Assembly: GCF_001570945.1 (NCBI RefSeq)
Contig: NZ_BCSQ01000012.1
Span: 1-61,540 of the forward strand
Source of the DNA: Janibacter anophelis NBRC 107843
Lineage (GTDB): Bacteria > Actinomycetota > Actinomycetes > Actinomycetales > Dermatophilaceae
DNA length: 61,540 nucleotides
Reading direction: 5' to 3'
Shown here one piece after another: positions 455-61,462 of the stretch. Within the stretch, counting starts at the first letter, position 1. Each line of letters starts with the position of its first letter. The translations under genes were made by a program, and so were the position numbers. The notes under the pieces were generated by a model, which was not told the origin of the DNA, made no database searches, and saw only the letters and a list, made by a program, of their open reading frames with translations.

Positions 455-3427
455 TCAGTTCTCCTCCAGGTCAGCCGAGCCCCCTCCGGGCTGGGCAGCT
501 GCAGCGGCCTCGATCTGCTTCTTCAGCTCCTTCTGCGCCTTGTCGTAGGCGGCGAAGTCGCCCTCCTTGAGCGCGTCCTGGCCGTCCTTGTACGCCTTCT
601 GCATGGCGGAGATGGCCGCGCGCAGCTTCTTCTCGTCGGCCGTGAGGTTCTTGGGCTCGGTGGGTTCCTTGGGCTCGGTCGGCTCCTTCGGCTCCGGCTC
701 ACCCGTCGGTCGACCCTCGGCGTCGACACCCGCGTCACCGCCGAAGAGCTCGTCGAGCGCGGTCTCGAGGTCCTGCGCCCACGCCACCTTGCCGCCGAAG
801 GTCACGACGACGATCCGCAGCTGCGGATAGCTCGTGCCGGAGGCCGACGAGAGATAGATCGGCTCGACGTGCAGGAAGCCCTCCCCGACCGGCAGCGCCA
901 GCTGGTTGCCGAAGGAGACCTGCGAGCCACCACGGTTGGCGTTGTTGAGGTAGTCGGTGAGCGTCTGCCCACCATCGCCCGAGGTCGCGTTGGACGAGAC
1001 GATGTCGTTCTGCACCTGCCCGACGCCGGGCACCGTCGTGTTGCGCGGCACGGACAACAATCGAAGCTGCCCGTAGCCGGACGCCGGTTTGCCCTCGACC
1101 GACCCCGCATCCGCGTCCACGGCCAGGTACCCCGCCATGACGTTGCGGCTACCCCGCGGGATGTACGTCGACGTGAGCGACCACGACGGACTCTTCTGGT
1201 CGGGCATCGCCAACGAGAGGAAGTACGGCGGCTGCGCGACCCCCGAGTCACCCCGCGACGGGTCGTCCGGCACGCGCCACCGGTCCTGGCCGGCACGGAA
1301 GTCGCTCGCGGACGTCACGTGGTAGTCGGCGAGGACCGCGCGCTGCATCCGGAAGAGGTCCTCCGGGTAGCGCAGGTGCGACATGAGATCGCCGCTGATC
1401 TCCCCCTTCTCCTTGAGCAGACCGGGGAAGGCCTTGTCCCAGGAGGCGACGATCGGGTCGCTCTGGTCCCACAGGTAGAGGTTGACCGTGCCGTCGAAGG
1501 CGTCGACGGTCGCCTTGACCGAGTTGCGCATGTAGTTGATCCGGTCACCGACGAGCGAGCTGGCCTGCTGCGTCTGCACCGACGAGACCTGCCCCGACTG
1601 CACGCCCGACATGGAGAAGGCGGTGCTGTACGGGTAGTTCTGCGACGTCGTGTAGCCGTCGACGACCCACTGGATGCGCCCGTCGACGATCGTCGGGTAG
1701 ACGTCGTCGTCGAGCGTCAGCCACGGCGCGACCCGCTTGACCCGCTCCTTGGGCGTGCGGTGCTCGAGCAGTCGCGAGTCCGACCCGACCGCGTCCGAGA
1801 GCAGGAACTTGATGTCGCGGTGCGTCAGCGCGTACGCAGCCTGCCGTGCACGCGAACCGATGGCCACGCCCCCTTCGCCCTGGTACGTGTAGCGCGACTC
1901 CTCGCCACCGGTCGGCTGGTCGATCTCGCGGGGGGTGTCGGTGTCGCCCTGCCCGACGATCGAGAAGTGCTGCATCTCCTCGCCGAAGTAGATCCGCGGC
2001 TCGTACTCGCCGATCTCGCTCGACGGCGAGATCCACTGCGGGTTGCCGGCGCGGGCCTGCGTGCCGCGGGCCATGACCAGGCCGTAGCCGTGCGTGTAGA
2101 CGGTGTGGTCGTTGACCCAGTCGCGGCGGTCGCTCGGCACCTTGTCGAGGTCGAGTTCACGGGCGCCCACGACGACGTCGGTCGTCTCGCCGTCGATCTC
2201 GTAGCGGTCGACGTCGAGGTCGTCCTGGAAGGTGTAGTACGGCTGCTGCGCCTGCAGCTCCTGGTAGGTCGGGCTGACGACCGACGGGTCGAGCAGCCGG
2301 ATACCGGGGATCGACGCGGCGTCCTCGCGCAGCTGTCCCGACGAGACGTCGGAGACGGCGTCGTAGGAGGCCGTGTCGACGCCCGTGACGCCGTGCGCGG
2401 CGCGGGTCGCGTCGATGTTGCGCTGGAGGTAGGGCTCCTCGAGCGAGTTGCGCGAGGGCGAGACCTTGTACGTCTCGACGAGCGCCGGGTAGATCGAGCC
2501 GACGACGACCGAGAGCACGATGAGCGTGCCGACCGCGATCGTCGGCAGGCGCCACGAGCGGCTGCGCACGGACGCGAGGAAGAGTCCGGCGCACATGGCG
2601 GCGGCGACGGCGAGGATGTACTTCGTCGGGATGACGGCGTGCACGCCGGTGTACCCGACGCCGGTCAGCACCTCGTTCTCCTCCGTCGTGAGGGCGTGCG
2701 CGCTCAACACGTAGCTCCACGCTCGCAGCAGCGCGAGGAAGGCGGCGATCACGGCGAGGTGGAGGAAGGCGGTGCGTGTCGAGCGCCCGCGCCCCGGCGG
2801 CACGATCCCGCCGTAGACGTAGTGGGCGAAGAGCGCGGCGAGCAGCGCCGCGAGCGCCGCGACGGTGAGGAACCCGACGACGAAGTTCCACCACGGCAGC
2901 GCGAAGAGGTAGTAAGAGATGTCCCGCCCGAACTGCTCGTCGGTCATCCCCGTCGACGTGGAGTTGCGCCACAGCAGCCAGGTCTGCCACTGGCCGGCGG
3001 CGGCGAGACCGCCGAGGATGCCCAGGACCGAAGGGAGGGCGATGGCCGTGGTCCTGCGGAAGGGTTCGATCGCCCGCCGGTACTGGGCGAGCGCCTGCTC
3101 CCCCGGCGTCATCGGCACCGTCATCGGGCGCGAGCGGTGGGCCAGCCACAGGCTCAGACCGATGGGAAGGGCGGTGAGCACCCCGCCGACGACGAAGAGA
3201 CCGACCTGCGTGCGCAGCCGCGACCACCACATGTCGGAGTAGCCGAGGGCGCCGAACCACAGCGACTCGGTCCACAGGCTCGCGGCGATGCTCACGAGGA
3301 GCAGCAGGACCGCGACGGCCGCCACGATCTTCGCCAGGCGGCTCGAGGGCACGCGTCGGGAAGGGGGACCCGGGTCCCGGGGCGGCGGGGCGCCCCCTTC
3401 GTCATCCGGCCAACTCGCGCTGCTCAT
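455..3427 (-). CDS. UPF0182 family large membrane protein
   Basis: The 990-residue product matches the UPF0182 (COG1615) family, whose role is unknown. About seven hydrophobic segments fill the first 310 residues, starting with one at about 33-52. A long extracytoplasmic domain follows, containing the conserved stretch YKVSPSRNSLEEPYLQRN. The C-terminal tail after about residue 915 is a low-complexity run of EPKEPTEPK repeats, then a charged helix. The start is ATG at 3427, with TACGGT 9 nt upstream as a possible -10 element. It faces the PPA1309-type gene across a 54-bp gap. The same family lies next to the PDZ-Lon protease gene in mycobacteria, so the neighbourhood is conserved. Confidence 0.93.
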   Translation of the reverse strand: MSSASWPDDEGGAPPPRDPGPPSRRVPSSRLAKIVAAVAVLLLLVSIAASLWTESLWFGALGYSDMWWSRLRTQVGLFVVGGVLTALPIGLSLWLAHRSRPMTVPMTPGEQALAQYRRAIEPFRRTTAIALPSVLGILGGLAAAGQWQTWLLWRNSTSTGMTDEQFGRDISYYLFALPWWNFVVGFLTVAALAALLAALFAHYVYGGIVPPGRGRSTRTAFLHLAVIAAFLALLRAWSYVLSAHALTTEENEVLTGVGYTGVHAVIPTKYILAVAAAMCAGLFLASVRSRSWRLPTIAVGTLIVLSVVVGSIYPALVETYKVSPSRNSLEEPYLQRNIDATRAAHGVTGVDTASYDAVSDVSSGQLREDAASIPGIRLLDPSVVSPTYQELQAQQPYYTFQDDLDVDRYEIDGETTDVVVGARELDLDKVPSDRRDWVNDHTVYTHGYGLVMARGTQARAGNPQWISPSSEIGEYEPRIYFGEEMQHFSIVGQGDTDTPREIDQPTGGEESRYTYQGEGGVAIGSRARQAAYALTHRDIKFLLSDAVGSDSRLLEHRTPKERVKRVAPWLTLDDDVYPTIVDGRIQWVVDGYTTSQNYPYSTAFSMSGVQSGQVSSVQTQQASSLVGDRINYMRNSVKATVDAFDGTVNLYLWDQSDPIVASWDKAFPGLLKEKGEISGDLMSHLRYPEDLFRMQRAVLADYHVTSASDFRAGQDRWRVPDDPSRGDSGVAQPPYFLSLAMPDQKSPSWSLTSTYIPRGSRNVMAGYLAVDADAGSVEGKPASGYGQLRLLSVPRNTTVPGVGQVQNDIVSSNATSGDGGQTLTDYLNNANRGGSQVSFGNQLALPVGEGFLHVEPIYLSSASGTSYPQLRIVVVTFGGKVAWAQDLETALDELFGGDAGVDAEGRPTGEPEPKEPTEPKEPTEPKNLTADEKKLRAAISAMQKAYKDGQDALKEGDFAAYDKAQKELKKQIEAAAAAQPGGGSADLEEN

Positions 3428-3481
3428 GGTGGGGTCACCGTACCCAGCCGACCTGAGGTGGCGTAAGGCAGCATGGTCTCC

Positions 3482-4027: not shown

Positions 4028-5121
4028 CCCGCGTTCGCGACCACGTCCTCGCACGTCGCGAAGTCCGCGGTCTCCCCCTTCGCGATGTCCTCCACGGTGT
4101 CGCTGGCCTCGGTGAAGTCGCCGACGGGCACCACGGTCAGGCCGTCGGGGACGTGCCCGACGACGTCACCGCAGTTGCTCTCGGGGGCGAGGAACCAGTC
4201 GGCGCCGGTCTCCTGGGCGCCGACCATCTTCTGCGCGATGCCGCCGATCGGGCCGACGACGCCGGAGTCGTCGATCGTGCCGGTGCCGGCGATCCGCTCG
4301 CCGCCGGTCATGGCGCCCGGGGTGAGCCGGTCGCGCACGGCGAGGGCGAACATCATGCCCGCGCTCGGGCCGCCGACGTTGCCGGCGTCGATGCGCACCT
4401 CGAAGGGGTAGTCGAACGTCGACTCGATGCCGATGCCGATGCCCGCGCGGCCGCCGCCGAGGTCGGTCGTCTCGACGGTGACCTTGCGCTCCTTGCCGTC
4501 GCGGCGGATGACGAGGTCGACGTCGTCGCCGGGCTTGCGGTCGGAGATGCCGTCCACGACGTCGGCAACGCGGTTGGTCCGCTTGCCGTCGACGGAGACG
4601 ATCTCGTCCTCGAGCTCGAGCTGGTCGGCGGCCGGGTACCCCTTGCCGATCGAGGCGACGATGTTGTCCTGCGGCACCTCCACGCCGGTGCTGCGCATGC
4701 CGACGGCGATCGAGTTCTTCTGCGAGCCCTGCATCTGGGCCTCGTTGAGCTGCTCGATCTCGTCCTCGGAGACGCCCTCGGGGAAGAGCTGCTCCTCCGG
4801 CACCACCCGGGAGTCCCCGTCGAGGTGGCCCATGACGTACTCCCAGCCGGTGATGTGCCGCTCGGGCCCACCGAGCACGCGCACGGTCGTGAAGTAGAGG
4901 GCGCCCTCGGTCGGGTAGCTCTTGGCGCCCTTGACCGTCACCAGCTCGGAGCCGTCACTCAGGGTGCCGAGGGTGTCCGTCGCGGGGCCGGGGCGCTCGA
5001 TCGCGTACGGGACCTTGATCAGCATGCCCGCGAGCGTGACGATGAGGACGAGGAAGGACACCACGAGGACCCACCGGGCGATGCGCTCACTGCGCGGGAC
5101 GGTGTGGACCGGGTCGGTCAC
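4024..5121 (-). CDS. PDZ domain S16 (Lon-type) membrane protease, YlbL-like
   Basis: The product (365 aa) has one N-terminal membrane segment (ARWVLVVSFLVLIVTLAGML). A PDZ-like region follows (AADQLELEDEIVSVDGKRTN), then a Lon-type proteolytic domain with the Ser motif GGPSAGMMFALA and the Lys-bearing GPIGGIAQKMVGA. Ser and Lys form the S16 catalytic dyad, so activity is likely. The domain should face outward and degrade membrane or exported substrates. GTG 5121 is chosen because GGAGG lies 5 nt upstream; an ATG at 5232 would add an unrelated basic stretch and overlap the divergent gene. Orthologues adjoin UPF0182 and DUF2342 genes in mycobacteria. Confidence 0.9.
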   Translation of the reverse strand: MTDPVHTVPRSERIARWVLVVSFLVLIVTLAGMLIKVPYAIERPGPATDTLGTLSDGSELVTVKGAKSYPTEGALYFTTVRVLGGPERHITGWEYVMGHLDGDSRVVPEEQLFPEGVSEDEIEQLNEAQMQGSQKNSIAVGMRSTGVEVPQDNIVASIGKGYPAADQLELEDEIVSVDGKRTNRVADVVDGISDRKPGDDVDLVIRRDGKERKVTVETTDLGGGRAGIGIGIESTFDYPFEVRIDAGNVGGPSAGMMFALAVRDRLTPGAMTGGERIAGTGTIDDSGVVGPIGGIAQKMVGAQETGADWFLAPESNCGDVVGHVPDGLTVVPVGDFTEASDTVEDIAKGETADFATCEDVVANAG

Positions 5122-5216: not shown

Positions 5217-6659
5217 GTGAGCAACGACCCAAGCACCCCCTCCGGTTCCCCCGGGGACGACGGGCTGCCCCCCGAGATCATGAAGATCTTCCGCGACCTC
5301 AACGGCGGGCGTGACCTGCCGCCGCAGCTCGTCGAGCAGCTCAAGGCCATGGGCATGGCCCATGCCGACCCGGCCCAGGTGGCCGCCATGACCTCCCAGA
5401 TCCAGTCGATGTTCGCCCCCGGCGCACAGCGGAAGGGGGTGGACGTCACCGCCGCGGTCACGGCCGCCCAGGAGCAGGCCGAGTCCGAGGACCACGAGAT
5501 GGGCGAGCGGGAGCGCGGCCTCGCCGAGCAGGCCGTGCGGGTCGCGTCGATGTGGCTCGACCAGGTGACCGACCTCGAGGCCCCGGCGCTCACCGGCGCG
5601 GCCCTCTCCCGCTCGGAGTGGATCGAGGCGACGATGCCGGTGTGGGCCTCGCTCGTCGACCCCGTCGCCGACGGGCTCTCTGCGGCGATCCGCGACTCGA
5701 TGACCTCGCGGCTCGACGACGCCGACGCCCCCGACCTGCAGGCGATGGGCCTGCCGGCCGGCATGGACCTGTCGATGCTCACCCAGCAGCTCGCTCCCTT
5801 CGTCGACACGATGTCGTCGCAGCTCATGACCGCCCAGACCGCGGAGGCCGTCGGGACGCTCTCCTCCGACACGCTCACGGCGACCGAGGTCGGCGTGCCG
5901 CTGCTCACGACGCAGGTGGGGCTGCTGCCGGGCAATGTCGCCGGCTTCGCCGAGGGGCTCGACGTCTCGCTCGACGAGGTGTGGCTGCACCTGGCGGCGC
6001 GCGAGGCGGCGCGGATGCGGCTCTTCACCGCCGTGCCGTGGATCGGGCCGCAGATCCTCGCCGCCGTGCAGGCCTACGCGCGGGGCATCGCGATCGACAC
6101 CGACGCCATCGACGCGGCCGTGCGCGAGATCGACCCGTCCGACACTGCGGCGCTGCAGGAGGCGCTGACCGGTGGCTTCCTCAACCCGAGTCCCACTGCG
6201 GCACAACGGCATGCGCTCGGCCAGCTCGAGACCTGGCTGGCCCTCGTCGAGGGCTGGGTCGACCACGTCGCCGCTTCCGCGACCCGCGACCACCTGCCGC
6301 ACACCGCGGCGATGACCGAGACGATCCGGCGCCGCCGGGCGACCGGTGGACCGGCGGAGAAGACCTTCGCCGCGCTCGTCGGCCTCGAGCTGCGACCGCG
6401 TCGGCTGCGTGACGCCGCCAACCTCTTCGCGGCGCTCGAGGAGCGCGTCGGGGCCTCCGGCCGCGACGGCGTGTGGGCGCACCCCGACGTCGCGCCGACC
6501 GCGGCCGACCTCGACGACGTGCTGGGCTTCGTCGAGCGCACCGCCGCGGGTGGCACCGACGAGAGCGCCGACCTCGACGCCGCGCTGGAGTCGATCCTGC
6601 GCGAGGCGGACGAAGGGGGCTCCGCCGACTCCGGTCGTGACCCGTCCGGTGACTCGTGA
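5217..6659 (+). CDS. DUF2342 zinc-dependent metalloprotease-like protein
   Basis: This 480-residue protein fits the DUF2342 family, annotated as zincin-like hydrolases and sometimes linked loosely to coenzyme F420. The N-terminus has GLPPEIMKIFRDLNGG. The putative metal region is LVEGWVDHVAA (about residues 344-354), followed by the conserved ETIRRRRATGGPAEKTFAALVGLELRPRR segment and an FVER C-terminal motif. The metal site is less canonical than EGHxxH forms, so activity is uncertain. The GTG start follows a weak GGAAGAG. The stop overlaps the Nudix start by GTGA, so the two are translationally coupled. It opens the + strand run that ends with the ABC1 kinase. Confidence 0.85.
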   Translation: MSNDPSTPSGSPGDDGLPPEIMKIFRDLNGGRDLPPQLVEQLKAMGMAHADPAQVAAMTSQIQSMFAPGAQRKGVDVTAAVTAAQEQAESEDHEMGERERGLAEQAVRVASMWLDQVTDLEAPALTGAALSRSEWIEATMPVWASLVDPVADGLSAAIRDSMTSRLDDADAPDLQAMGLPAGMDLSMLTQQLAPFVDTMSSQLMTAQTAEAVGTLSSDTLTATEVGVPLLTTQVGLLPGNVAGFAEGLDVSLDEVWLHLAAREAARMRLFTAVPWIGPQILAAVQAYARGIAIDTDAIDAAVREIDPSDTAALQEALTGGFLNPSPTAAQRHALGQLETWLALVEGWVDHVAASATRDHLPHTAAMTETIRRRRATGGPAEKTFAALVGLELRPRRLRDAANLFAALEERVGASGRDGVWAHPDVAPTAADLDDVLGFVERTAAGGTDESADLDAALESILREADEGGSADSGRDPSGDS

Positions 6660-7371: not shown

Positions 7372-8301
7372 GTGACCGAGCGAGCACCGATGCACCCACC
7401 GACCCATCCACCGCGCGAGGCGCGGCTGCGCCCCCTTCGTCGTCAGGACGGGAGCGTCCAGCTGGGTGTCGGGCCGCGCTCGGTCCGGCTCATCGGGCTC
7501 ACCGACGCCGAGGTGCGCTGGCTGGCCGCCCTCGACCCGCGGCGCGCGCTGACCGAGGCGCTCACGACCGCCGCACTTGAAGGCATCGAGCCCGCCCGGG
7601 CCACCGATGTCCTCGACCGGCTCATCGCCGGCGGCCTGCTCTCCCCCGTCGACCGCGACCGGCTCCCGTCCGTGGCGGTGGTGGGCGCGGGGGCGCTCCC
7701 GTCGCTCCTCGTCGACGTCCTGCGGCAGGGCGAGCAGGTGGGCGTCACCCGGGTGCGAGCCGGGGGCGAAGGGGGTCCCGCCGACCTGGCGGTCGTCGTC
7801 AGCCACGCCCCGGCCGACGCCGCGTCGGTGCACCCGTGGCTCACAAGCGGCGTCCCGGTGCTGCCGTTGTGGTGCCAGCCCGAGCACGCGAGCATCGGCC
7901 CCGTCATCGCGCCCGCCGGTCGCCCCTGCCTGCACTGCCTCGACCTGACCCGCGTCTCGGCCGACCCCGACTGGCCGCACCTGCGCGCCCAGCTGACCCG
8001 GCCACGCGTCACCGGCCCGGAGCCGGCCGACGGGCTGCCCGCGGTGCGGCTGCTCGCAGCCGGCCTGACCACCGCGCTCGTGCTCGACCACGTGACAGGG
8101 CGGGTGGCGGCGCCGGAGTGGTCCTTCGAGGTCGCCACGCCCGGGCCCACCCTCGAGCGGCACCGGTGGCCGGCCCACCCCGGCTGCCCCGAGTGCGGCG
8201 AACCGGGGCGCGCCGTCCGCCGGCCCCGGCCGGGCACCACGACACCCGGCGACAGGGGGTCCAGCGACCGATCAGGCTGGGACGACACAATGGCCGGGTG
8301 A
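7372..8301 (+). CDS. Cyclodehydratase / ThiF-like (TOMM leader-binding type) protein
   Basis: The 309-residue protein has a small N-terminal winged-helix-like region (LTDAEVRWLAALDPRRALTE) and a Rossmann-like E1 core (VAVVGAGALPSLLVDVLRQG). Two Cys pairs, CLHCLDL (about 183-189) and CPECG (about 272-276), probably bind zinc. It resembles the bacteriocin-cyclodehydratase-domain or TOMM leader-binding family. No YcaO partner or precursor peptide is nearby. Homologues recur beside ABC1 kinases in actinobacteria, pointing to a housekeeping role. The nucleotide-binding GxGxxG is incomplete (GAGALPS), so adenylation activity is doubtful. The GTG start has no clear ribosome site. Confidence 0.75.
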   Translation: MTERAPMHPPTHPPREARLRPLRRQDGSVQLGVGPRSVRLIGLTDAEVRWLAALDPRRALTEALTTAALEGIEPARATDVLDRLIAGGLLSPVDRDRLPSVAVVGAGALPSLLVDVLRQGEQVGVTRVRAGGEGGPADLAVVVSHAPADAASVHPWLTSGVPVLPLWCQPEHASIGPVIAPAGRPCLHCLDLTRVSADPDWPHLRAQLTRPRVTGPEPADGLPAVRLLAAGLTTALVLDHVTGRVAAPEWSFEVATPGPTLERHRWPAHPGCPECGEPGRAVRRPRPGTTTPGDRGSSDRSGWDDTMAG

Positions 8302-11321: not shown

Positions 11322-13469
11322 TCACTCCTCGCCCTCGCCGACGGCCGTCGCGGCGACCTCGTCGGGGTCGGCGCCACCGACGACGGCGAGCACCTGGTCG
11401 GCGTACTGGGAAAGCTTGCGCGGACCCACGCCGCTGATCGCGGACAGCTCGCGCTGCTGGGTCGGCTCGGCCTCGGCGATCGCCTCGAGGGTGGCGTCGG
11501 TGAAGACGACGAAGGCGGGCACGGACGCCGCCCGCGACACCGCCAGGCGCCAGGCGCGCAAGCGCTCGAAGGTCGCCTCGTCGTAGGTGGGTGGGCACTC
11601 GGGGCAGCGCCCGGAGGCCCGCTCGGTCGCGGTGTTGAGCTCGGTGCCGCACACCTTGCACACCTTGGGCCGTGAGGGCTTGAGCTTGCTGCCGCGCGGC
11701 GCGGAGGTCCGCTTGGGCGTGGAGCGCGCGCCCTCGCCGAGGATGCTCGCGGCCTGGTCGAGGAACCGGCTGACCCTTCGCGTCGGCCGCGCACCGGGCG
11801 TGCGCGCCCGGGCCCACGACAGGTGCAGCACCTCGCGGGCACGGGTGACGCCCACGTACATGAGGCGCCGCTCCTCCTCGATCTCCTCGACGCCCTCGGC
11901 CATCATGATCGGCAGCAGCCCGTCGGAGCAGCCGACGAGGAAGACGACGTCCCACTCCAGGCCCTTGGCCGCGTGGAGCGAGGCGAGGGTGACGCCCTCG
12001 ACATCGGGGGCGTGCTGGGCGGCGATCCGCTCGTCGAGGTCGCGCACGAGCTCGGGCAGCCGCGCCTCGGGGCTGGCCGCCGTCAGTCGCGCCGAGAGGT
12101 CGACGAGCGCCTTGAGCGACTCCCACCGCGAGCGCACCGCCCCGGTGCTCGCGGGCGGGTCCTCGTGCCAGCCGATGCCTCCGAGCACGTCGGCGACGAG
12201 CGCGGGCAGCGGCTTGCTGCCGTCGTCGCTGCGCGCGGCGCCACGCAGCAGCAGCACGGCCTCACGCACCTCCTTGCGCGAGAAGAACCGCTCCCCTCCC
12301 TTGACGAGATAGGGCACCTCGGCGTCGGCGAGCGCGGACTCGAGGGCCTCGGACTGCCCGTTGGTGCGGAAGAGCACCGCGATCTCGCTGAGCGGGCGCC
12401 CTTGCGCCGCAAGGCCTTTGACCTTGTCGGCGACCCACGCGGCTTCCGCCGGGTCGTCGTCGAGCGCGGTGAGCGAAGGGGGGTTCCCCCCTTCGCGCTG
12501 CGGCACCAGCTCGACGGCGCCTCCGCGACGCTGCCCGTTGGTGTCGGTGAGCATGCGGTTGGCGAGCGCGAGGACCGGGGGCGTGGAGCGGTAGTTGCGC
12601 ACGAGCCGCACCGTCTGTGCGCCGGGGTGGTGCCGGGTGAAACCGAGCAGGTGCTCGGGGGTCGCGCCGGTGAAGGAGTAGATCGTCTGGGCCGGGTCGC
12701 CGACGACGCAGATGTCGCCGCGGCCGCCGAGCCACAGGTCGAGCAGGCGCTGCTGCAACGCGTTGACGTCCTGGTACTCGTCGACGACGAAGTGCCGGTA
12801 CTGGTCGCGCACGGTGCGCGCGATGTCCTCGCGCTCCTCGAGGATGCCGACGGTGAGGAGCAGGACGTCCTCGAAGTCGATGACCCCGCGCTCCCCCTTG
12901 ACGTCCTCGTAGGTCGAGATGAGCCGGGCCATCGCGGTGTGGTCCATGCCGGGCGGCTCGCGGCGGGCGCGCCGGGCGGCGGCCGCGTAGGTCTCGGGGG
13001 TGAGCAGCGAGACCTTGGACCACTCGATCTCGGAGGCGACGTCCCGCAGCTCGGAGCGGTCGAGCCGCATGCCCATGCGGGAGGCGGCCTCGGCGACGAC
13101 GGGGATCTTGTGCGGCATGACCTCGGGCGCCGCGCCGCCGATCGCCGACGGCCAGAAGTAGTGCAGCTGCCGCAGCGCCGCGGCGTGGAAGGTCCGCGCC
13201 TGCACGCCGACGACCCCGAGGTCACGCAGCCGGGTGCGCATCTCGCCGGCGGCCCGCGCGGTGAAGGTCACAGCCAGCACCCGCTGCGGCTGGTAGGCGC
13301 CGGAGCGCACGCCGTAGGCAATGCGGTGGGTGATCGCGCGGGTCTTGCCCGTCCCCGCACCGGCGAGCACGACCATCGGCCCGCTGGGGTTGGCGGCGAC
13401 CTCGCGCTGCTCGGGGTCGAGCGCGGCGAGGATCTCGTCCGCGGACTGCGGGCCGGGCTGGGTGCTCAC
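11322..13469 (-). CDS. uvrD2: ATP-dependent DNA helicase UvrD2
   Basis: A 715-residue superfamily 1A helicase. Walker A is GAGTGKT (37-43), the DExx motif is VVDEYQDV (about 235), and motif IV-VI signatures VRLVRNYRS, ASLHAAKGLEWD and RRLMYVGVTRA are intact. After the motor there is a tetracysteine module (CKVCGTEL...CPECP, about 583-605) and a C-terminal HRDC domain (about 620-695), the layout of mycobacterial UvrD2. It unwinds 3'-tailed duplexes in repair and is essential in M. tuberculosis. The start is GTG 13469. An internal palindrome made of two CGAAGGGGG copies (about 12474-12496) falls in its coding sequence. Confidence 0.93.
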   Translation of the reverse strand: MSTQPGPQSADEILAALDPEQREVAANPSGPMVVLAGAGTGKTRAITHRIAYGVRSGAYQPQRVLAVTFTARAAGEMRTRLRDLGVVGVQARTFHAAALRQLHYFWPSAIGGAAPEVMPHKIPVVAEAASRMGMRLDRSELRDVASEIEWSKVSLLTPETYAAAARRARREPPGMDHTAMARLISTYEDVKGERGVIDFEDVLLLTVGILEEREDIARTVRDQYRHFVVDEYQDVNALQQRLLDLWLGGRGDICVVGDPAQTIYSFTGATPEHLLGFTRHHPGAQTVRLVRNYRSTPPVLALANRMLTDTNGQRRGGAVELVPQREGGNPPSLTALDDDPAEAAWVADKVKGLAAQGRPLSEIAVLFRTNGQSEALESALADAEVPYLVKGGERFFSRKEVREAVLLLRGAARSDDGSKPLPALVADVLGGIGWHEDPPASTGAVRSRWESLKALVDLSARLTAASPEARLPELVRDLDERIAAQHAPDVEGVTLASLHAAKGLEWDVVFLVGCSDGLLPIMMAEGVEEIEEERRLMYVGVTRAREVLHLSWARARTPGARPTRRVSRFLDQAASILGEGARSTPKRTSAPRGSKLKPSRPKVCKVCGTELNTATERASGRCPECPPTYDEATFERLRAWRLAVSRAASVPAFVVFTDATLEAIAEAEPTQQRELSAISGVGPRKLSQYADQVLAVVGGADPDEVAATAVGEGEE

Positions 13470-41001: not shown

Positions 41002-41060
41002 GGTGACGACGCTAGTGACCGGTGGACTCGCCGGACAAGCGCCACGCGGCGAAGGGGGTC

Positions 41061-44427: not shown

Positions 44428-44461
44428 CGAAGGGAGGAGAGCCGCAGCTCTCCCCCCTTCG
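44428..44461 (-). terminator. Terminator hairpin after the first L,D-transpeptidase
   Basis: CGAAGGGAGGAGAGC (44428-44442) pairs with GCTCTCCCCCCTTCG (44447-44461), one mismatch, 4-nt loop. It lies 38 bp past the stop of the transpeptidase gene and again contains the recurrent 9-mer. Confidence 0.8.
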
Positions 44462-46512: not shown

Positions 46513-46522
46513 CCGAAGGGGG

Positions 46523-48475: not shown

Positions 48476-48632
48476 GTGTGGCTCGAGTCCTCTCAGGGTG
48501 AGCGAAGGGGGGTTCCCGCGAAACCTAGCAAGCGGCCCGGTCCTCCCGTTATGACCGCACACACATGACTCCCGGTCGCTGCCCGACCTGCGCTCCGTGG
48601 ACCCCCGACCGGGCCGGCCCTAGGGTGACGCC

Positions 48633-49145
48633 ATGAGCGAGGTCAACCTCTCGGCACTGACGAGCGAGGCGCTGTCGAAGTCCGGCGTGCTCTGGCTGCG
48701 GCTGCCGGACGGCGAGCGCCTCACCTGGTTCGCCACGGGCAGCGACGAGCTCGACGGCCACTTCCTGCTCGTCTCGGGAGGGCTCGAGGCCGATCTCGGC
48801 GTGCTGCCGGAGCAGCTCGAGATCGTGCTGCGCAGCAAGGGTGACGGCGGCCGGCTGCTCACCCTGCGCGCCCGCGCGCAGTCGCTCGACCCGGGCAACC
48901 CGTGGTGGGAGCCCGCGGCCGCGGCACTGCTCGGCGAGCGGCTCAACGCTCCGAGCGACCTGCTCGACCGCTGGCGCAGCGAGTCGATAATCTGGCTCGT
49001 CTCCCCCTTCGGCGCACCGGTGCAGTCCCCCGGGCGCACCGGTCCGCAGGGCTCCGAGCGCGTCGCGGGACCGGTCACCCCCGGAGCGGCCGGCACGCCG
49101 GTGCGACGGCCGTGGCACCTCGGCGGGCGCGGCCGTCGGGGCTGA
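48633..49145 (+). CDS. Conserved hypothetical protein
   Basis: A 170-residue protein with a globular first 120 residues (WLRLPDGERLTWFATGSDEL, WWEPAAAALLGERLNAPSD) and a flexible Pro/Gly/Arg tail. I do not recognise a fold. Position next to the MgtE-CBS gene is conserved in actinobacteria, so a magnesium or mrp link is possible but unproven. ATG 48633 follows TAGGGT (48621-48626) by 6 nt: leaderless. Confidence 0.72.
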   Translation: MSEVNLSALTSEALSKSGVLWLRLPDGERLTWFATGSDELDGHFLLVSGGLEADLGVLPEQLEIVLRSKGDGGRLLTLRARAQSLDPGNPWWEPAAAALLGERLNAPSDLLDRWRSESIIWLVSPFGAPVQSPGRTGPQGSERVAGPVTPGAAGTPVRRPWHLGGRGRRG

Positions 49146-51001: not shown

Positions 51002-51024
51002 GCGAAGGGGGCGCCCCCCTTCGC
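51002..51024 (+). terminator. Hairpin of paired GCGAAGGGGG motifs after DUF1003
   Basis: GCGAAGGGGG (51002-51011) and CCCCCTTCGC (51015-51024) form a perfect 10-bp stem with a 3-nt loop, 8 bp past the DUF1003 stop. Repeat block C starts just beyond it. Confidence 0.8.
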
Positions 51025-53025: not shown

Positions 53026-54396
53026 TCAGTTCTCCTTCGCCGCTTCGAGCGTCATCGTCAGCTCCTGCTCCTTGCCGTCCCTGCGGACCTTCAGGGTGAC
53101 CTTATCGCCCACGGCCTTGGCTCGGATCCGGGTGATCAGCTGGTCGAGGTCGGTGATGCGGCGACCGTCCATCTCGGTGATGAGGTCGCCCGGCTCGATG
53201 CCGGCGTTGTCCGCCGGCCCGTCGGGCACCACCGCGTCCCCGCCGGGGACGTCGGAGTCCTCCAGGACCTTGGCTCCCTCGCCGGTCCAGCGACGGTCGA
53301 GGCTCACGCCGATCATCGGGTGGACCGCCTTGCCGGTGGCGATGAGCTGGTCGACGGTGCGCACGACGACGTCCGACGGGATGGCGAAGCCCACGCCGAT
53401 CGATCCCGACGCCTGGCGCTGACCCGGCACCTGGGCGATCGCGGAGTTGACGCCGATGACGTCGCCGTCGCCGTTGAGCAGCGGCCCGCCGGAGTTGCCC
53501 GGGTTGATCGCCGCGTCGGTCTGGATCGCGGAGATGAAGGACTCGTCCCCCGCCTCGCCCGCGGAGACCGGGCGCTCCAGCGCGGAGACGATGCCGGCGG
53601 TGACCGTCGAGCCCAGCCCGAGGGGCGAGCCCACCGCGACCACCTCGTCGCCGACCACCACGTCGTCCGAGGCGCCGATCTGAAGCGGCTCGAGGTCGTC
53701 GGCCTCGACCTTGAGCACCGCGAGGTCGTAGGAGGAGTCCTGACCGACCACCTCGGCGTCGTACCGGGTGCCGTCAGGCAGCTCGATGCTCACCTCGCCG
53801 CCCTCGCCGGCACCGTCGACGACGTGGTCGTTGGTGACGATGTGCCCGCGGTCGTCGTAGACCCAACCCGAGCCCGTGCCGGACCCGCCGCCACCGCGCA
53901 CCCGCACCGTGACGACGCTCGGGACCGCGTCCGCGGCGATCGCCGCGATCGACCCGTCGGGCCGCTGGGCGGGATCGCCGTCGCGCTGCACGATGGTCGG
54001 TCCGCCCCCTTCGCCGTCGAGCAGGGCCACGCCACCGGCGCCGATGCCACCGGCGAGCAGAGCCGCGGTGAGCGTCATGACGCCCGCCCCGAGCCACCCC
54101 GGGCCACGTCGGCGCGCCGCGGGAGGAGCGAAGGGGGGAAGCTGCTGCGGGTGCCCAGCGCTGGCCACGGGTGCGGCCGGCCACATCCGGCCCGGGTCAT
54201 GTCCCCCGGCGTCGTACGACGCGGTCGGTGCGTCGTGGGCCTGCTGACCGTAGGACCCGACGCCGTACGGCTGGGTGTGCTCGGGCGACCGCTCGAAGCT
54301 CTCGTACGGAACGTACGGGCCGGGCGCCTCCGGTGCGACTGACTCGGTGGGCGCGTCCTGGGGTCGGGGCTCTTCACCCGGGTGCGGAGAGCTCAT
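53026..54396 (-). CDS. htrA: HtrA/DegP-type membrane serine protease
   Basis: A 456-residue protease. Residues 1-97 are cytoplasmic and Pro/Gly/Tyr-rich. One membrane span lies at about 101-125. The trypsin-like domain has His191 (TNDHVV), Asp224 (SYDLAVL) and Ser302 (GNSGGP), a full triad; a PDZ domain follows (about 350-450). It degrades misfolded envelope proteins. CACAAT (54404-54409) ends 7 nt before ATG 54396, so it may have its own promoter besides sigE readthrough. Only 34 bp separate it from sigE, leaving no room for an anti-sigma gene. Confidence 0.93.
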   Translation of the reverse strand: MSSPHPGEEPRPQDAPTESVAPEAPGPYVPYESFERSPEHTQPYGVGSYGQQAHDAPTASYDAGGHDPGRMWPAAPVASAGHPQQLPPFAPPAARRRGPGWLGAGVMTLTAALLAGGIGAGGVALLDGEGGGPTIVQRDGDPAQRPDGSIAAIAADAVPSVVTVRVRGGGGSGTGSGWVYDDRGHIVTNDHVVDGAGEGGEVSIELPDGTRYDAEVVGQDSSYDLAVLKVEADDLEPLQIGASDDVVVGDEVVAVGSPLGLGSTVTAGIVSALERPVSAGEAGDESFISAIQTDAAINPGNSGGPLLNGDGDVIGVNSAIAQVPGQRQASGSIGVGFAIPSDVVVRTVDQLIATGKAVHPMIGVSLDRRWTGEGAKVLEDSDVPGGDAVVPDGPADNAGIEPGDLITEMDGRRITDLDQLITRIRAKAVGDKVTLKVRRDGKEQELTMTLEAAKEN

Positions 54397-56143: not shown

Positions 56144-57606
56144 GATCCCCTCGGGCCCGTGAGCCACGACAGCAGTGTCCGGGCACCGTAACCAGTGGCT
56201 CCGACGCTGAGGAGCCCCGTGTCATCATCCGAACGCCCCGGACCGGCGATGTCCAGGTGGGCCCAGCGCCGCTCGCCGACGAACTCCTGCAGGAACAGGG
56301 CCGCGGTGACGGCCCCGACCTTGCCCGGGGCGTTGTCGAGGTCGGCGACGTCGCTGCGCAGGTACTCGCGGTACTCCTCGTGCAGCGGCAGCCGCCAGTA
56401 CGGCTCCCCCACCGCGGCGCCGGCCTCGGAGAGCTCCCCGGCGAGCGCGTCGTCGGGGGTGAAGAGCGCGGCCATGCTGCGGGCGAGCGCGACGCGGGCC
56501 GCGCCGGTCAGGGTCGCGACGTCGACGAGGACGTCGGGCTCGAGGTGGTCGTCGGCGTAGGCGAGCGCATCGGCCAGGACGATGCGGCCCTCGGCGTCGG
56601 TGTTGGTCACCTCGACGGTGCGGCGCCCGCCGTACGGGGCGATGACGTCGCTCGGGCGGTACGAGGCCTCACCGAAGGTGTTCTCCGCCAAGGGCAGCAG
56701 CACCGTCAGGTGCACGGGCAGCTCCAGCGCGGCGACCGCGTCGATGACCGAGAGCACGACGGCCGAGCCGGACATGTCCGTGCGCATCGAGACCATGCCG
56801 GCGGCCGGCTTGACGTTGATGCCACCGGTGTCGAAGGTGATCCCCTTGCCCACGAGGACGACGTGCGGGGCGTCCCCCTTCGTCCCGTGGGTCAGGCGCA
56901 CGAGGCGCGGCGGACGGGTCGACCCGCCACCGACGGCGAGCAGCCCACCGAAGCCCTCCGCGACGAGCCGATCCTGCTCCCAGACCTCCATCTCGAGGCC
57001 GCGGCGCTCGGCGACCTCGCGGGCGCGCTCGACCATCCACTGCGGGTCCTTGAGGTTGGACGGGGTGTTGGCCAGGTTGCGGGCGAGCAGGCTCGCAGCC
57101 GTCACCGTCGTGACGTGGTCGAGGTCGAGCGCGGCGTCGCCGGTCACGACGACGGTCGCGCCCGCCGGTTCCAGCCCTGCGACGGGGCCCTCGGGACCAC
57201 GGCGCGCGGAGCGGTAGCCGCCGAGGACGAGGCCCTCGACGAGCGGCCGCAGGTCCGGGGCAGAGGCGGCGACGACGACCCGGGCGAGGCCGGCCCCGGC
57301 GCGCCCGACCCTCGCGCCGAGCCGGCGCAGCGCGTCGGTGTCGGCCGGCGTCGCGACGCCGACGACGCGGGCGATGGACCGGGAGCCCTCGGGCCGGGTG
57401 AGGTCGACGAGCTCGTCGCCGGTCAGCAGTGCCTCGGCGTCTGCCGGCAGCTCCACACCCATCTCCGCGAGCGGCGCCAGGTGGGCGGCGTCGACGACGA
57501 GGAGGTCGATGCCCCCTTCGCCCGTCGCGTCCGCGAGCGCGGACGAGAGGTCCGGGACGCTCGTGAGGTCGGTGGTCGGTGGGGACAGCAGGTCGATGTC
57601 TGGCAC
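56140..57606 (-). CDS. pepA: Leucyl aminopeptidase (M17)
   Basis: A 488-residue M17 peptidase. The C-terminal catalytic domain holds VLVGKGITFDTGGINVKPAA (Lys and Asp ligands), MRTDMSGSAVVLSVI and the signature NTDAEGRIVLADAL (Asp, Glu, Arg); zinc ligands are intact. The N-terminal macro-like domain is weakly conserved, as usual. It trims N-terminal Leu and other residues. GTG 57606 follows TAGGGT (57614-57619) by 7 nt. An in-frame extension to 57873 passes through the DUF3117 gene and was rejected. Confidence 0.92.
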   Translation of the reverse strand: MPDIDLLSPPTTDLTSVPDLSSALADATGEGGIDLLVVDAAHLAPLAEMGVELPADAEALLTGDELVDLTRPEGSRSIARVVGVATPADTDALRRLGARVGRAGAGLARVVVAASAPDLRPLVEGLVLGGYRSARRGPEGPVAGLEPAGATVVVTGDAALDLDHVTTVTAASLLARNLANTPSNLKDPQWMVERAREVAERRGLEMEVWEQDRLVAEGFGGLLAVGGGSTRPPRLVRLTHGTKGDAPHVVLVGKGITFDTGGINVKPAAGMVSMRTDMSGSAVVLSVIDAVAALELPVHLTVLLPLAENTFGEASYRPSDVIAPYGGRRTVEVTNTDAEGRIVLADALAYADDHLEPDVLVDVATLTGAARVALARSMAALFTPDDALAGELSEAGAAVGEPYWRLPLHEEYREYLRSDVADLDNAPGKVGAVTAALFLQEFVGERRWAHLDIAGPGRSDDDTGLLSVGATGYGARTLLSWLTGPRGS

Positions 57607-57987: not shown

Positions 57988-59307
57988 TCACGGCGGCGTG
58001 ACGTGCCACGGCACGTACGGCAGCAGCCCGCACGACCACGCCAGCACCCCGACCACGAGCACGCCGAGGACGACCAGCGCGCGCCGACGCCAGTGCCGCA
58101 CGACCCGGCCACCGGTGGAGGTGCGCATCGTCACCGACGCGACCAACGCCGCGAGCGGGAAGTCGAGCAGCAGGAAGCGCCACATGCTCGTGATCGGTCG
58201 CACGACCGCGAAGAGGTAGAGCGGGTACATCAGCGCCCACATGCGCACCTCGAGGGGGATCCACGCCCCGTGGCGCCCGATGACGAGCGCCAGGTAGGTC
58301 GCGACGAGCGCGACCATGACGACGACGGCGAGCAGGCCGCGCTGCTCCCACGCCCAGCTGAACCACAGCACGAAGGGCCCCTGGTCGGGGCGCTGGCCCC
58401 ACGCCGCCTGCACCCGGAAGAAGGCGTCGGGCAGGCCCGACAGGTAGCCCACCGTCACCGGCCACGCGACCCCGGAGATGCCGGTGGCCAGGCACATGAC
58501 GGCGATCCGGATGCGGTCGTGGGCGAAGGGGGCCGTGCCGCTCTCCCGCTCCTCACGCCAGCGCAGCCACAGGTGGGCGAGCACGGCCAGACCGAGCGGC
58601 GCGGCGACCCCGCGGGTGAAGCCGAGCAGGAGGGCGATCGCCGCGACGGCCAGGTAGCGGCCGCGCATGAGCATGAGCAGCGCGCCGGCGATGAGGGCCG
58701 CGGCGAGCGCCTCGGTGTACGGCAGGAGCATCACCCCCGTCGCCGGGTAGAAGCACCACAGGGCGGCAGCGACGAACGCGAGGCGCTCGCGCGCGGGCTG
58801 GCTGGCGGCGTGGCCGGGAAAGCTCAGCACCTTCCACACGAGCAGGGTCGCGACGGCGCCGAGCACGAGGTTGAGGACGACGGCCGAGGCGGTGAAGCCG
58901 AGGCCGGTGTACATGATGAGTCGGACCAGCCCGGGGAAGAGCGGGAAGAAGGCCCACGCGCTGTACGTGATCTCCCCCGACTCCGGGTCGGCGGGAAGGG
59001 GGATGGGGTAGCCGTCGGTGACGATCCGCCGGTACCACTCGGTGTCCCACAGGCGGAACATGTCGGGCAGCCCCGGCTCGAGGTGGCCGACGCCGGCGGG
59101 CGACTGGTAGTAGTGCGCCGCGACCCAGATGGCGAGGAGCGCGACGAGGCGACTGACCGCGTAGATGACCAGGAGGGCGCGCACGGGGTGCGCCAGCGCC
59201 GTCCGGGCGAGCTCGGACCGCCCCTCGGAGGTGAGCCAGCGGCGGGGGCGGGCGGCGCCCCCTTCGTCGGGGGTGGTGTCGGCGTCAGCCGAGGTCGGTG
59301 CCGTCAT
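57988..59307 (-). CDS. PIG-V-like mannosyltransferase membrane protein
   Basis: A 439-residue polytopic protein with about ten membrane spans. FRLWDTEWYRRIVTDGYP (about 85-102) is the luminal or extracytoplasmic WDxxWY motif of PIG-V/GT-C mannosyltransferases, with Asp as the likely catalytic residue. It probably uses a polyprenol-linked mannose donor for surface glycans. ATG 59307 overlaps the end of the DivIVA-like gene by 23 nt; GTG 59310 is also possible. Confidence 0.85.
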   Translation of the reverse strand: MTAPTSADADTTPDEGGAARPRRWLTSEGRSELARTALAHPVRALLVIYAVSRLVALLAIWVAAHYYQSPAGVGHLEPGLPDMFRLWDTEWYRRIVTDGYPIPLPADPESGEITYSAWAFFPLFPGLVRLIMYTGLGFTASAVVLNLVLGAVATLLVWKVLSFPGHAASQPARERLAFVAAALWCFYPATGVMLLPYTEALAAALIAGALLMLMRGRYLAVAAIALLLGFTRGVAAPLGLAVLAHLWLRWREERESGTAPFAHDRIRIAVMCLATGISGVAWPVTVGYLSGLPDAFFRVQAAWGQRPDQGPFVLWFSWAWEQRGLLAVVVMVALVATYLALVIGRHGAWIPLEVRMWALMYPLYLFAVVRPITSMWRFLLLDFPLAALVASVTMRTSTGGRVVRHWRRRALVVLGVLVVGVLAWSCGLLPYVPWHVTPP

Positions 59308-60375: not shown

Positions 60376-60385
60376 GGTCGCGACC

Positions 60386-61462
60386 CTACGCGAGCCAGCG
60401 CAGCACGGCCTGCTCCGCCGTGGTGATCTGCTCGACCGGGCACCGCTCCTCGTCGTGGTGGGCGAGGTTGGGGTCGCCCGGGCCGAAGTTGACCGCCGGG
60501 ATGCCCAGCGCGGAGAAGCGGGCGACGTCGGTCCAGCCCTCCTTGGGGCCGACGGGCACGTCGAGGGCGGCGACGAAGGCCTGCGCCGCGGGCAGGTCGA
60601 GCCCCGGCCGGGCCCCCTCGGCGACGTCGCGCAGGTGCAGCTCGCGACCGGGCAGGACGGACTGGACGTAGGCGAGCGCGGTCTCGGTGTCCTTGTCCGG
60701 CGAGAAGCGATAGTTGATCAGGACGCTGCAGCTGTCGGGGATGACGTTGCCGGCGATGCCACCGCTGATGCCGACGGCCTGGAGGGCCTCGTGGTAGTCG
60801 AGGCCGTCGACGGTGACGGTCTGCTCCTCGTGGGCGGCGAGCGCGGCCAGGACCTCGTGGGCGTCGTGGATGGCGTTGTGGCCGTTCCACGGGCGGGCGG
60901 AGTGCGCGGCGATGCCCTTGGTGACGACCTCGACGCGCATCGTGCCCTTGCAGCCCCCTTCGACGGTGGCGTTGGTCGGCTCGAGGAGGACCGCGAAGTC
61001 GGCGGCGAGCAGGTCCGGGTCGGACTCGGCGAGCAGCTGCAGGCCGTTGTACACCGCGTCGACCTCCTCGGCCTCGTAGAAGAGGAAGGTGACGTCCCGG
61101 CTCGGCTCCTCGATGAGCGCGGCCTTGAGCTGGACGGCGACGCCCCCCTTCATGTCGACGGTCCCCCGACCCCACAGCACGTCGACACCGCCGACCTGCT
61201 CGCGGCGGGTCGGCAGGTTGGCCGGGTCGGTCGTGAGGGGCACGGTGTCGATGTGCCCGGCGAGCACGACCCGCTCGTCGCGGTCGAGGTGGGTGCGGGC
61301 GATGATCGTGTTGCCCCGGCGCTCCACCTCCAGATGACGAAGGGGGGTCAGCGCCGCCTCGATCGCGTCCGCGATGGCGGCCTCGTCGTGGCTGACCGAC
61401 TCGATGTCGCACAGCTGCTGGGTGAGGGTGACGACGTCCGCGGTGAGGTCCAGGCCAGGCAT
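60386..61462 (-). CDS. dapE: Succinyl-diaminopimelate desuccinylase
   Basis: A 358-residue M20 peptidase-family enzyme. VVLAGHIDTVPLT (His, Asp), GRGTVDMKGG (bridging Asp), FLFYEAEEVDAVYN (Glu-Glu) and the late NLAHHDEERCPVEQI (His) are the dimetal ligands. It cleaves N-succinyl-LL-diaminopimelate in lysine and wall precursor synthesis. ATG 61462 lies 7 nt after TAGGCT (61470-61475). It is the first gene on this strand, followed by LOG. Confidence 0.92.
   Translation of the reverse strand: MPGLDLTADVVTLTQQLCDIESVSHDEAAIADAIEAALTPLRHLEVERRGNTIIARTHLDRDERVVLAGHIDTVPLTTDPANLPTRREQVGGVDVLWGRGTVDMKGGVAVQLKAALIEEPSRDVTFLFYEAEEVDAVYNGLQLLAESDPDLLAADFAVLLEPTNATVEGGCKGTMRVEVVTKGIAAHSARPWNGHNAIHDAHEVLAALAAHEEQTVTVDGLDYHEALQAVGISGGIAGNVIPDSCSVLINYRFSPDKDTETALAYVQSVLPGRELHLRDVAEGARPGLDLPAAQAFVAALDVPVGPKEGWTDVARFSALGIPAVNFGPGDPNLAHHDEERCPVEQITTAEQAVLRWLA

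Follow-up and report, generated by a model that had tools for sequence, protein, structure and literature searches.

The window (the whole stretch of DNA analysed, 61,540 nt) was found to contain 54 exact copies of CGAAGGGGG, 25 on the plus strand and 29 on the minus strand, spanning 1869 to 61346, and the by-eye tally of the first-pass annotation (about 54, 25/29) agrees with this exact count. Placement was read against genes predicted by our own simple gene finder. By these predictions 38 copies were genic, 22 along the gene and 16 against it and in all frames, and 16 were intergenic. The single copies and the head-to-head pairs were located as follows.

1869..1877, minus: genic copy
3393..3401, minus: intergenic copy
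4074..4082, minus: genic copy
6611..6619, plus: genic copy
7431..7439, minus: genic copy
7767..7775, plus: genic copy
12474..12495: head-to-head pair (12474-12482 plus, 12487-12495 minus), gap 4, within a predicted gene
14112..14159: head-to-head pair (14112-14120 plus, 14151-14159 minus), gap 30, within a predicted gene
14276..14284, plus: genic copy
14789..14797, plus: genic copy
16104..16112, minus: genic copy
19752..19760, minus: genic copy, in one of two adjacent AddA/UvrD-like helicase genes
22459..22467, minus: genic copy, same helicase gene as 19752..19760
22695..22703, minus: intergenic copy
24761..24769, plus: genic copy
24999..25007, plus: genic copy
25150..25158, minus: intergenic copy
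26692..26700, plus: genic copy
27268..27276, plus: genic copy
29375..29383, plus: genic copy
30850..30858, plus: genic copy
31465..31473, minus: genic copy
32139..32147, minus: genic copy
32406..32414, plus: genic copy
33345..33353, plus: intergenic copy
37190..37210: head-to-head pair (37190-37198 plus, 37202-37210 minus), gap 3, terminator-like, between convergent predicted genes, directly past the end of gene 35679-37181 (plus)
38494..38528: head-to-head pair (38494-38502 plus, 38520-38528 minus), gap 17, between divergent predicted genes
41050..41058, plus: intergenic copy
41347..41355, minus: genic copy
42000..42008, minus: genic copy
42294..42302, minus: genic copy
42960..42968, plus: genic copy
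43051..43095: head-to-head pair (43051-43059 plus, 43087-43095 minus), gap 27, spanning the 3′ end of predicted gene 41714-43075 (plus), convergent gene opposite
44453..44461, minus: intergenic copy
46514..46522, plus: intergenic copy
48043..48051, minus: genic copy
48503..48511, plus: intergenic copy
49003..49011, minus: genic copy
50272..50280, minus: genic copy
51003..51023: head-to-head pair (51003-51011 plus, 51015-51023 minus), gap 3, intergenic, terminator-like, directly past the end of predicted gene 50448-50993 (plus)
54005..54013, minus: genic copy
54129..54137, plus: intergenic copy
56874..56882, minus: genic copy
57512..57520, minus: genic copy
58524..58532, plus: genic copy
59258..59266, minus: genic copy
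60954..60962, minus: genic copy
61338..61346, plus: genic copy

Dinucleotide shuffles of the window were found to contain a mean of 0.87 copies (3 in the largest of 100 shuffles), and synonymous-codon shuffles, in which the protein and codon usage were kept, contained a mean of 4.4 copies (maximum 11 over 50 shuffles) against the 38 genic copies observed, so that codon and dinucleotide bias does not explain the abundance. The genic copies coded for peptides such as KGx, EGG, PFx, PLR and PPS. The occurrence in all frames and in both gene directions, together with the synonymous shuffles, bears out the earlier view that the constraint lies on DNA and not on protein. The whole genome (3.31 Mb), which is that of a Janibacter, contained 1,850 copies (935 plus, 915 minus), about one per 1.8 kb, whereas the reversed word, used as a control, was found 26 times (15 plus, 11 minus). 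A 461-kb sample contained 296 copies against 12.0 expected under an order-3 Markov model, and CGAAGGGGG had the highest z-score in that sample of all 9-mers present 8 or more times; the genome-wide count is thus far from the Markov expectation. The expectation climbs to 106 and 248 at orders 5 and 6, because such models hold most of the word, as is true of any over-represented word. The near-matches reported as frequent were indeed enriched in the window, CGAAGGGAG with 11 copies (1.2 expected at order 2) and CGAAGGGGA with 9 (0.9), and both are enriched variants of the Janibacter word, although clear enrichment was found in only a few of its 27 one-base variants. The flanks were found to prefer GR-CGAAGGGGG-notG.

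In two samples, 220 of 296 and 509 of 724 copies were genic, and no gene-strand bias was found among them (107 vs 113 and 267 vs 242), while the density between genes was 3.5- and 4.4-fold that inside genes. Close pairs were mostly head-to-head, with 22 head-to-head, 7 tail-to-tail and 5 direct pairs in the sample of genome G000 and 72, 30 and 5, respectively, in G009. Head-to-head pairs outside genes and within 100 bp of a gene end made up 11 of the 22 pairs in G000 and 45 of the 72 in G009, compared with 7% and 6% of random positions. The spacing of copies in G000 was more regular than chance (gap CV 0.77 vs 0.95 simulated, 0 of 1,000 simulations as low), as it was in G009 (gap CV 0.885, p = 0.037). 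Exact conservation between G000 and G009 was 54.5% (84/154, each conserved pair entering once from either genome); 60 control words in the same comparison gave 38.3% (sd 7.8, maximum 53.7%). Genes with atypical codon use showed no depletion of the words, and the density was lowest in genes of most typical use. Low-GC 5-kb bins were word-poor, the lowest 5% and the upper three quarters giving 2.6 and 3.2 in G000, 1.3 and 3.1 in G009, and 0.5 and 3.5 in G110; the rank correlation with GC was significant in G110 only (p = 0.04; G009 0.09, G000 0.53).

The orientation of 724 copies was compared with origin and terminus, and the best split placed 54% on one strand (p = 0.44), which agrees with the earlier argument, drawn from the balance of orientations, against KOPS. 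The identity of CGAAGGGGG as KOPS was rejected, the strong terminus-ward polarity being absent. KOPS/AIMS resemble CGAAGGGGG in over-representation and chromosome-wide spread but are polar, and the polar word here was found to be CGGGGGAG, the best split of which put 97% and 96% of the copies on a single strand in the two sampled lineages.

The relatives were examined in a set of 186 genomes of the family. CGAAGGGGG was found in 797 to 1,939 copies in all 19 genomes of Janibacter (g1) and g64, apparently Marihabitans, and in 11 to 80 copies in the other 167 genomes; the enrichment is therefore both genome-wide and clade-wide. The cousin genera were found to contain a different word, CGGCATAC, with at least 400 copies in 106 of the 186 genomes, from 30 genera, and only 7 to 41 copies in the 19 Janibacter/g64 genomes; 61 family genomes reached 400 copies of neither word. 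Outside the family, CGGCATAC did not exceed 180 copies in 362 genomes from 19 other families. The variants CGGCATCC, CGGCATTC or CGTCATAC ranked first in 20-kb samples from four genomes. CGGCATAC was balanced between strands (101,150 forward and 100,849 reverse copies in the 106 genomes), showed no gene-strand bias inside genes (96 vs 98), and in G110 the best replication split gave one strand 54% of its copies, the p value above applying to the Janibacter word only. Its close pairs were few (10 head-to-head, 6 tail-to-tail and 2 direct in 400 kb, a weak head-to-head excess) and its density scarcely differed between genes (0.75 per kb) and inside them (0.60 per kb), so that CGGCATAC matches the behaviour of CGAAGGGGG only in part. 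The two words were found to have little in common except an R preceding CG.

The genome of the window contains ComEA and ComEC genes that appear intact. A Tad/Flp-type locus including a TadE-type minor pilin was found in G009, and a Tad-type ATPase in G000. Across the family, a ComEC match was present in 180 of 186 genomes and a Tad-type ATPase match in 184 (168 above the curated cut-off), so that both are also present in the majority of the 61 genomes in which neither word reaches 400 copies. G065, G114 and G139 were found without CGGCATAC though their sister species carry it, and they keep both matches, the ComEC match of G139, a 230-contig draft, being weaker (E = 3.9e-32). No PilT above the family cut-off was found in the 16 Janibacter genomes. 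Transformation of Micrococcus luteus, also an actinobacterium, needs ComEC and Flp-pilus genes according to passages of PMC4322843 and PMC12849477. Among the papers searched, none joined Janibacter with natural transformation and competence.

Word tags for the uptake of own-kind DNA occur in some Gram-negative bacteria (DUS and USS, in two families). Like such sequences, CGAAGGGGG and CGGCATAC are top over-represented words with hundreds to thousands of copies, are alike on both strands and show no replication orientation bias; CGAAGGGGG also forms inverted pairs in terminator-like positions past gene ends, and dialects differ among related genera, though the DUS dialects resemble one another much more closely than the two main words do. 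The DUS of Neisseriaceae, as described in parts of PMC3630211, is likewise short, non-palindromic, present about once per 1-2 kb (about 1,900 copies in 2.2-2.3 Mb in Neisseria) on both strands, in genes and between them, with inverted pairs tied to terminators and different words in related genera. The USS of Pasteurellaceae is similar in its core of 9 bp, its copies in the thousands, its two main versions within one family and its inverted pairs at terminators (sections of PMC12616744 and PMC3630211), and sections of PMC12616744 and PMC13020248 describe inverted pairs as frequent among known uptake sequences. CGAAGGGGG is unrelated to both in sequence and belongs to another phylum, its host being actinobacterial, and by comparison with the DUS it occurs with Tad/Flp genes in place of PilT. 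The in-gene orientation bias of known uptake sequences, given for USS in parts of van Passel 2008 (PMC2346458) as a reported trend and forming no part of their definition, was not found for CGAAGGGGG or CGGCATAC. The likeness to HIP1 drawn in the first-pass annotation holds for behaviour, the word being highly iterated, clade-wide and genic. It fails for form, since the cyanobacterial HIP1 is a palindrome and the reverse complement of CGAAGGGGG is CCCCCTTCG.

Chi-like or chromosome-binding roles are less likely alternatives for CGAAGGGGG. Known Chi words are G-rich, short and over-represented, as CGAAGGGGG is, and in Janibacter it might control how RecBCD (or AdnAB) acts at double-strand breaks; the presence of RecC (PF04257) in 18 of the 19 CGAAGGGGG-carrying genomes, the miss being a 79%-complete genome, suits such a signal, and so do the two adjacent helicase genes of the window (called AdnAB in the first-pass annotation). 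Chi is about 75% co-oriented with replication in E. coli, but the 724 copies showed no replication strand preference while CGGGGGAG, a separate polar word, did in the same data, and a Chi signal would not be expected to form head-to-head pairs beyond the ends of genes. RecC was also not found to track CGGCATAC, being present in 45 of 106 CGGCATAC-rich genomes against 26 of 61 with neither word, and in only 2 of 41 genomes of eight CGGCATAC genera (g8, g16, g18, word-bearing g45, g52, g68, g69 and g73). A Chi-like signal is thus considered unlikely, and the proposed role of AdnAB gained no support; the helicase genes are present, but the separate, strongly replication-polar word CGGGGGAG exists. 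The binding of a chromosome-organising or other nucleoid protein, with a specificity varying by genus, would agree with the regular spacing, both orientations, genic and intergenic copies and conservation; it predicts neither the head-to-head pairs past gene ends nor the wholesale replacement of the word among genera, and is quite unlikely.

A DNA modification or restriction site, or a mutational or gene-conversion bias producing the word, is held to be very unlikely. Nothing specific was found in its favour, methylation being a suggestion of the first-pass annotation; restriction usually depletes its own sites, and a mutational bias should raise the near neighbours evenly, yet few of the 27 one-base variants are clearly enriched. 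The reading of CGAAGGGGG as the base of the stem in a common terminator, with lone copies as remnants, agrees with the head-to-head pairs directly past gene ends and with the similar hairpins, of few copies, in unrelated genomes. The single genic copies, half of them against the gene, largely refute this, and only a minority of copies lie in pairs. Among the 80 hairpin loci listed, 55, including every non-Janibacter one, hold at most one lone copy, and all 25 with at least two copies belong to Janibacter or Marihabitans; a terminator element is extremely unlikely.

Uptake sequences, which the first-pass annotation had not considered, fit best once the relatives are examined, and are favoured because the cousin genera have a word of their own that behaves in a similar way. 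We regard it as probable, by a modest measure, that CGAAGGGGG and CGGCATAC are uptake words, each specific to its lineage, that a Tad/Flp-ComEA/ComEC machine recognises. The two would then be the same kind of thing, and CGAAGGGGG is proposed as the Janibacter/Marihabitans dialect of a DUS-like repeat set across one actinobacterial family, in which 30 other genera use CGGCATAC. During natural transformation, which Janibacter may undergo, a surface receptor, most likely a Tad/Flp minor pilin or ComEA, would bind the word in free DNA and favour the entry of own-kind DNA through ComEC. Every stretch of chromosome replaced by word-bearing DNA would then add copies in either orientation at any site that tolerates them (molecular drive), and the head-to-head pairs past gene ends may act as terminators. 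Against this reading stand the ComEC and Tad-type ATPase matches in genomes that have neither word, the partial likeness of CGGCATAC to CGAAGGGGG, the undepleted genes with atypical codon use, the missing in-gene orientation bias, and the RecC of the CGAAGGGGG carriers, which suits Chi. The chances are about even that this is a third, independently evolved self-DNA uptake code and the first in Gram-positives, with two unrelated main words and their variants in one family and a Tad/Flp pilus, not a type IVa pilus, as the reader.

Were CGAAGGGGG a recombination or chromosome site and no uptake word, the switch to another word between genera would call for an explanation no less. If the uptake reading is true, a third lineage with another phylum, envelope and pilus would mean that self-DNA codes arise repeatedly, and natural transformation would be predicted in this actinobacterial family, whose members are common in soil and wastewater. 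It would also open a comparative path to the receptor, because each switch of word could be compared with the changes that pilin or ComEA genes have undergone, and would suggest the use of word-tagged DNA for transforming members of the family in the laboratory.

The word CGAAGGGGG, a non-palindromic 9-mer, was found to occur 54 times in the window, with 25 copies on the + strand and 29 on the - strand, exactly as counted by eye in the first-pass annotation; dinucleotide shuffles gave 0.87. The whole genome (G000; 3,308,605 bases in 124 contigs, the window being the complete contig C12) contained 935 + 915 copies, and the reversed word was present at 15 + 11. In 461 kb of this genome (the window and 20 stretches), 296 copies were observed against 12.0 expected under an order-3 Markov model, and CGAAGGGGG had the top z-score among the 9-mers with at least 8 copies. 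Synonymous-codon shuffling of the predicted genes left a mean of 4.4 copies where the window has 38 genic ones (12%); the corresponding means were 29 where the 461-kb sample has 220 (13%) and 82 where 1.2 Mb of G009, the complete chromosome of another Janibacter, has 509 (16%). Codon and dinucleotide bias was rejected as the source of the enrichment because shuffles recovered only these 12-16% of the genic copies. The over-representation claimed in the first-pass annotation survived both the Markov and the shuffling comparisons.

The flanks of CGAAGGGGG were found to contain G in 75% of copies at position -2 and A or G in 75% at position -1, followed by a G in only 16% directly 3′ of the word. 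Among the 27 one-base variants in G009, CGAAGGGAG (300 vs 27) and CGAAGGGGA (175 vs 20) stood out, followed by a lesser excess of CGAAGGGGT (56 vs 29) and of the first-base changes. The 16 Janibacter genomes contained 97-886 copies of CGAAGGGAG each. One of them, G001, had the lowest CGAAGGGGG count (797) and few CGAAGGGAG (97), a possible decay of the word system.

The window was also found to contain a second dispersed repeat, a palindrome near GCGCATTTCCCCGGGGAAATGCGC, and a protein weakly similar to macrolide 2'-phosphotransferases:

7244: GCGCATTTCCCCGGGGAAATGCGC-like palindrome
24199-24295: GCGCATTTCCCCGGGGAAATGCGC-like palindrome
52464-52549: GCGCATTTCCCCGGGGAAATGCGC-like palindrome
14514-16121, + strand: putative kinase-like protein, similarity far under curated cut-offs

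The palindrome was locally tandem, about 42 bp apart, and was present in other sampled stretches (L115:426, L120:79-163, L125:3487, L130:14387, L134:15456). Pairs of TAGGGCAAT/ATTGCCCTA 42-49 bp apart formed another repeated element (L116:3081-3130, L119:2151-2193, L123:4141-4190, L134:12437-12486).

The majority of the CGAAGGGGG copies were found in genes, namely 220 of 296 in the G000 sample (107 along the gene, 113 against) and 509 of 724 in the G009 sample (267 along, 242 against). The density was 0.52 per kb in genes and 1.83 between genes in G000, with 0.47 and 2.03 in G009, and it peaked where neighbouring genes converge, at 3.75 and 2.96 per kb, respectively. After close pairs were merged, the spacing was found to be more even than random, with a gap CV of 0.77 vs 0.95 simulated in G000 (0 of 1,000 simulations that low) and of 0.885 in G009 (p = 0.037); by 5-kb bins, the evenness had p = 0.01 and 0.058, respectively. 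In G000 the close pairs (gaps <=40, enriched variants included) were head-to-head in 22 cases, tail-to-tail in 7 and direct in 5; the corresponding counts in G009 were 72, 30 and 5. Of the head-to-head pairs, 11 of 22 and 45 of 72 were intergenic and no more than 100 bp from a gene end, compared with 7% and 6% of random positions, and many pair stems in G009 extended inwards over gaps of about 22 bases. A terminator as the sole role of CGAAGGGGG was rejected since the majority of copies were single and genic. Among 80 of at least 114 loci in a scan for hairpins with CGAAGGGGG arms, from which records close to the window's genome were possibly omitted, no more than one lone copy per locus was found outside Janibacter and Marihabitans, and the named Marihabitans loci bore CGAAGGGGG. 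Such hairpins recurred, among the matches listed, across contigs of the Clostridiales MAG RUG12424 (L002, L009, L023, L034, L044, L058) and of a Chloroflexi MAG (L003, L049, L055, L074, L079); in these unrelated MAGs they are probably repeated terminator types.

In the alignment of G000 and G009 (151 kb, 83% identity), CGAAGGGGG was found to be identical in 84 of 154 occurrences taken from both sides (54.5%). Sixty control words had a mean of 38.3% (sd 7.8) and reached 53.7% at most; they were matched on G+C alone and not on codon position or intergenic share. The per-base identity was 82-93% within CGAAGGGGG and mostly 70-86% in the flanks.

Parts of G000 aligned with loci of named Janibacter, at 88% to J. 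terrae over 4.5 kb and at 90% to Janibacter sp. Soil728 over 2.0 kb. Janibacter is placed by the NCBI taxonomy in the Intrasporangiaceae, Micrococcales. In a survey of 186 genomes of the family, all 16 Janibacter genomes and the 3 genomes of a genus that is apparently Marihabitans contained 797-1,939 copies of CGAAGGGGG, whereas the other 167 contained 11-80. Other genera were sampled at 15-20 kb, and a Janibacter stretch, in which CGAAGGGGG ranked top, served as the positive control; several of these genera were led by a second word, CGGCATAC, or a near variant, and others had no top word. A sample of another genus (g51; L238, G089:C1:1-20000) contained other repeated words, GTAGCGATGA and CATAGGAGGG, each 7-9 times within its 20 kb; these may belong to a local repeat. 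The word CGGCATAC was found at 400-4,724 copies in 106 of the 186 genomes, spanning 30 genera (101,150 forward, 100,849 reverse), with a smallest excess of 2.5-fold because the reversed control was raised in some genera. It was present at 7-41 copies in the 19 Janibacter and Marihabitans genomes, and 61 genomes were below 400 for both words, although 14 of them had CGGCATAC 153-394 times. Across 19 other families of the order (362 genomes), CGGCATAC did not exceed 180, and the control in such genomes was equally high. A word survey of other families in 4-kb loci revealed none, the loci being so short that the Janibacter locus among them also lacked a visible CGAAGGGGG.

In G110, a complete genome of a cousin genus, CGGCATAC was the top word (251 vs 11.5 expected in 400 kb), with 194 genic copies, 96 along the gene and 98 against; codon shuffles gave 19 vs 191 real (10%). 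In contrast to CGAAGGGGG, it was hardly denser between genes and formed few pairs, and since the placement differs the two words are possibly two different things. Three genomes (G065, G114, G139) were without CGGCATAC whereas their sister species hold hundreds to thousands; these could be natural losses useful for finding the reader of the word.

The G009 chromosome was sampled in 60 stretches of 20 kb (L139-L198); CGAAGGGGG was found there in 349 forward and 375 reverse copies, and the best origin/terminus split placed 54% on one strand (p = 0.44 vs random strands). A separate word, CGGGGGAG, reached 97% on one strand per replichore in the identical scan (280 copies, net polarity 0.94), so polarity was detectable in these data. 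In G110 (L243-L262), the best split of CGGCATAC was likewise 54%, and CGGGGGAG reached 96% (49 copies, net polarity 0.92). Replication polarity was therefore rejected for both CGAAGGGGG and CGGCATAC; CGGGGGAG, polar in the two genera, is likely a polar word of the family, of KOPS/AIMS or Chi type. The balance of orientations had been taken in the first-pass annotation to argue against KOPS, and the lack of polarity agrees with this and also counts against Chi. A Chi-like role for CGAAGGGGG alone is opposed by polarity and by placement, but not by distribution, because RecC was found alongside CGAAGGGGG in 18 of 19 genomes. RecBCD as the general reader of the words was rejected since RecC did not track CGGCATAC, being present in 45 of the 106 CGGCATAC genomes and in 26 of the 61 with neither word.

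The genes of a possible uptake machinery were found in both Janibacter genomes. In G000, the ComEA gene (SLBB and helix-hairpin-helix domains) adjoined the ComEC gene (competence and metallo-beta-lactamase domains), both open, and a Tad-type ATPase gene was also present. In G009, a DECH helicase was encoded in a Tad/Flp-type locus together with a TadE-type minor pilin (NF041390) and a short pilin that was recognised by eye as Flp-like. Transformation of Micrococcus luteus needs ComEC and Flp-pilus genes (PMC4322843). ComEC was found in 180 of the 186 family genomes and the Tad-type ATPase in 184, with or without a word, so that both were rejected as predictors; word presence did not track competence genes, which permit an uptake reading and do not prove it. 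PilT was above the cut-off in 10 of 58 genomes, and no Janibacter was among these 10.

The uptake sequences of Neisseriaceae (DUS) and Pasteurellaceae (USS) are described, in PMC12616744, PMC3630211, PMC13020248 and PMC2346458, as conserved words that occur in thousands of copies, in both orientations and with permissive placement, that form head-to-head pairs at gene ends and that differ from one related genus to another. CGAAGGGGG was found to combine a comparable copy number with both orientations, permissive placement, gene-end pairs and conservation, and the word differs between related genera (CGAAGGGGG vs CGGCATAC). Unlike the trend reported for DUS/USS, no one-orientation bias was found in genes (107 vs 113, 267 vs 242), which is part of why DUS/USS membership is not established. 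Genes atypical by codon use were not depleted of words, and depletion judged by GC was weak. No uptake sequences in Actinomycetota, nor CGAAGGGGG or CGGCATAC as a genomic repeat, were found in the titles and abstract openings covered, prior print being possible in subscription journals and preprints outside this scope. Of the readings considered, a word that works like a DUS has the best support from the sequence data, and we propose CGAAGGGGG as a candidate uptake word of Janibacter and Marihabitans, in a family that would have its own set of such words.
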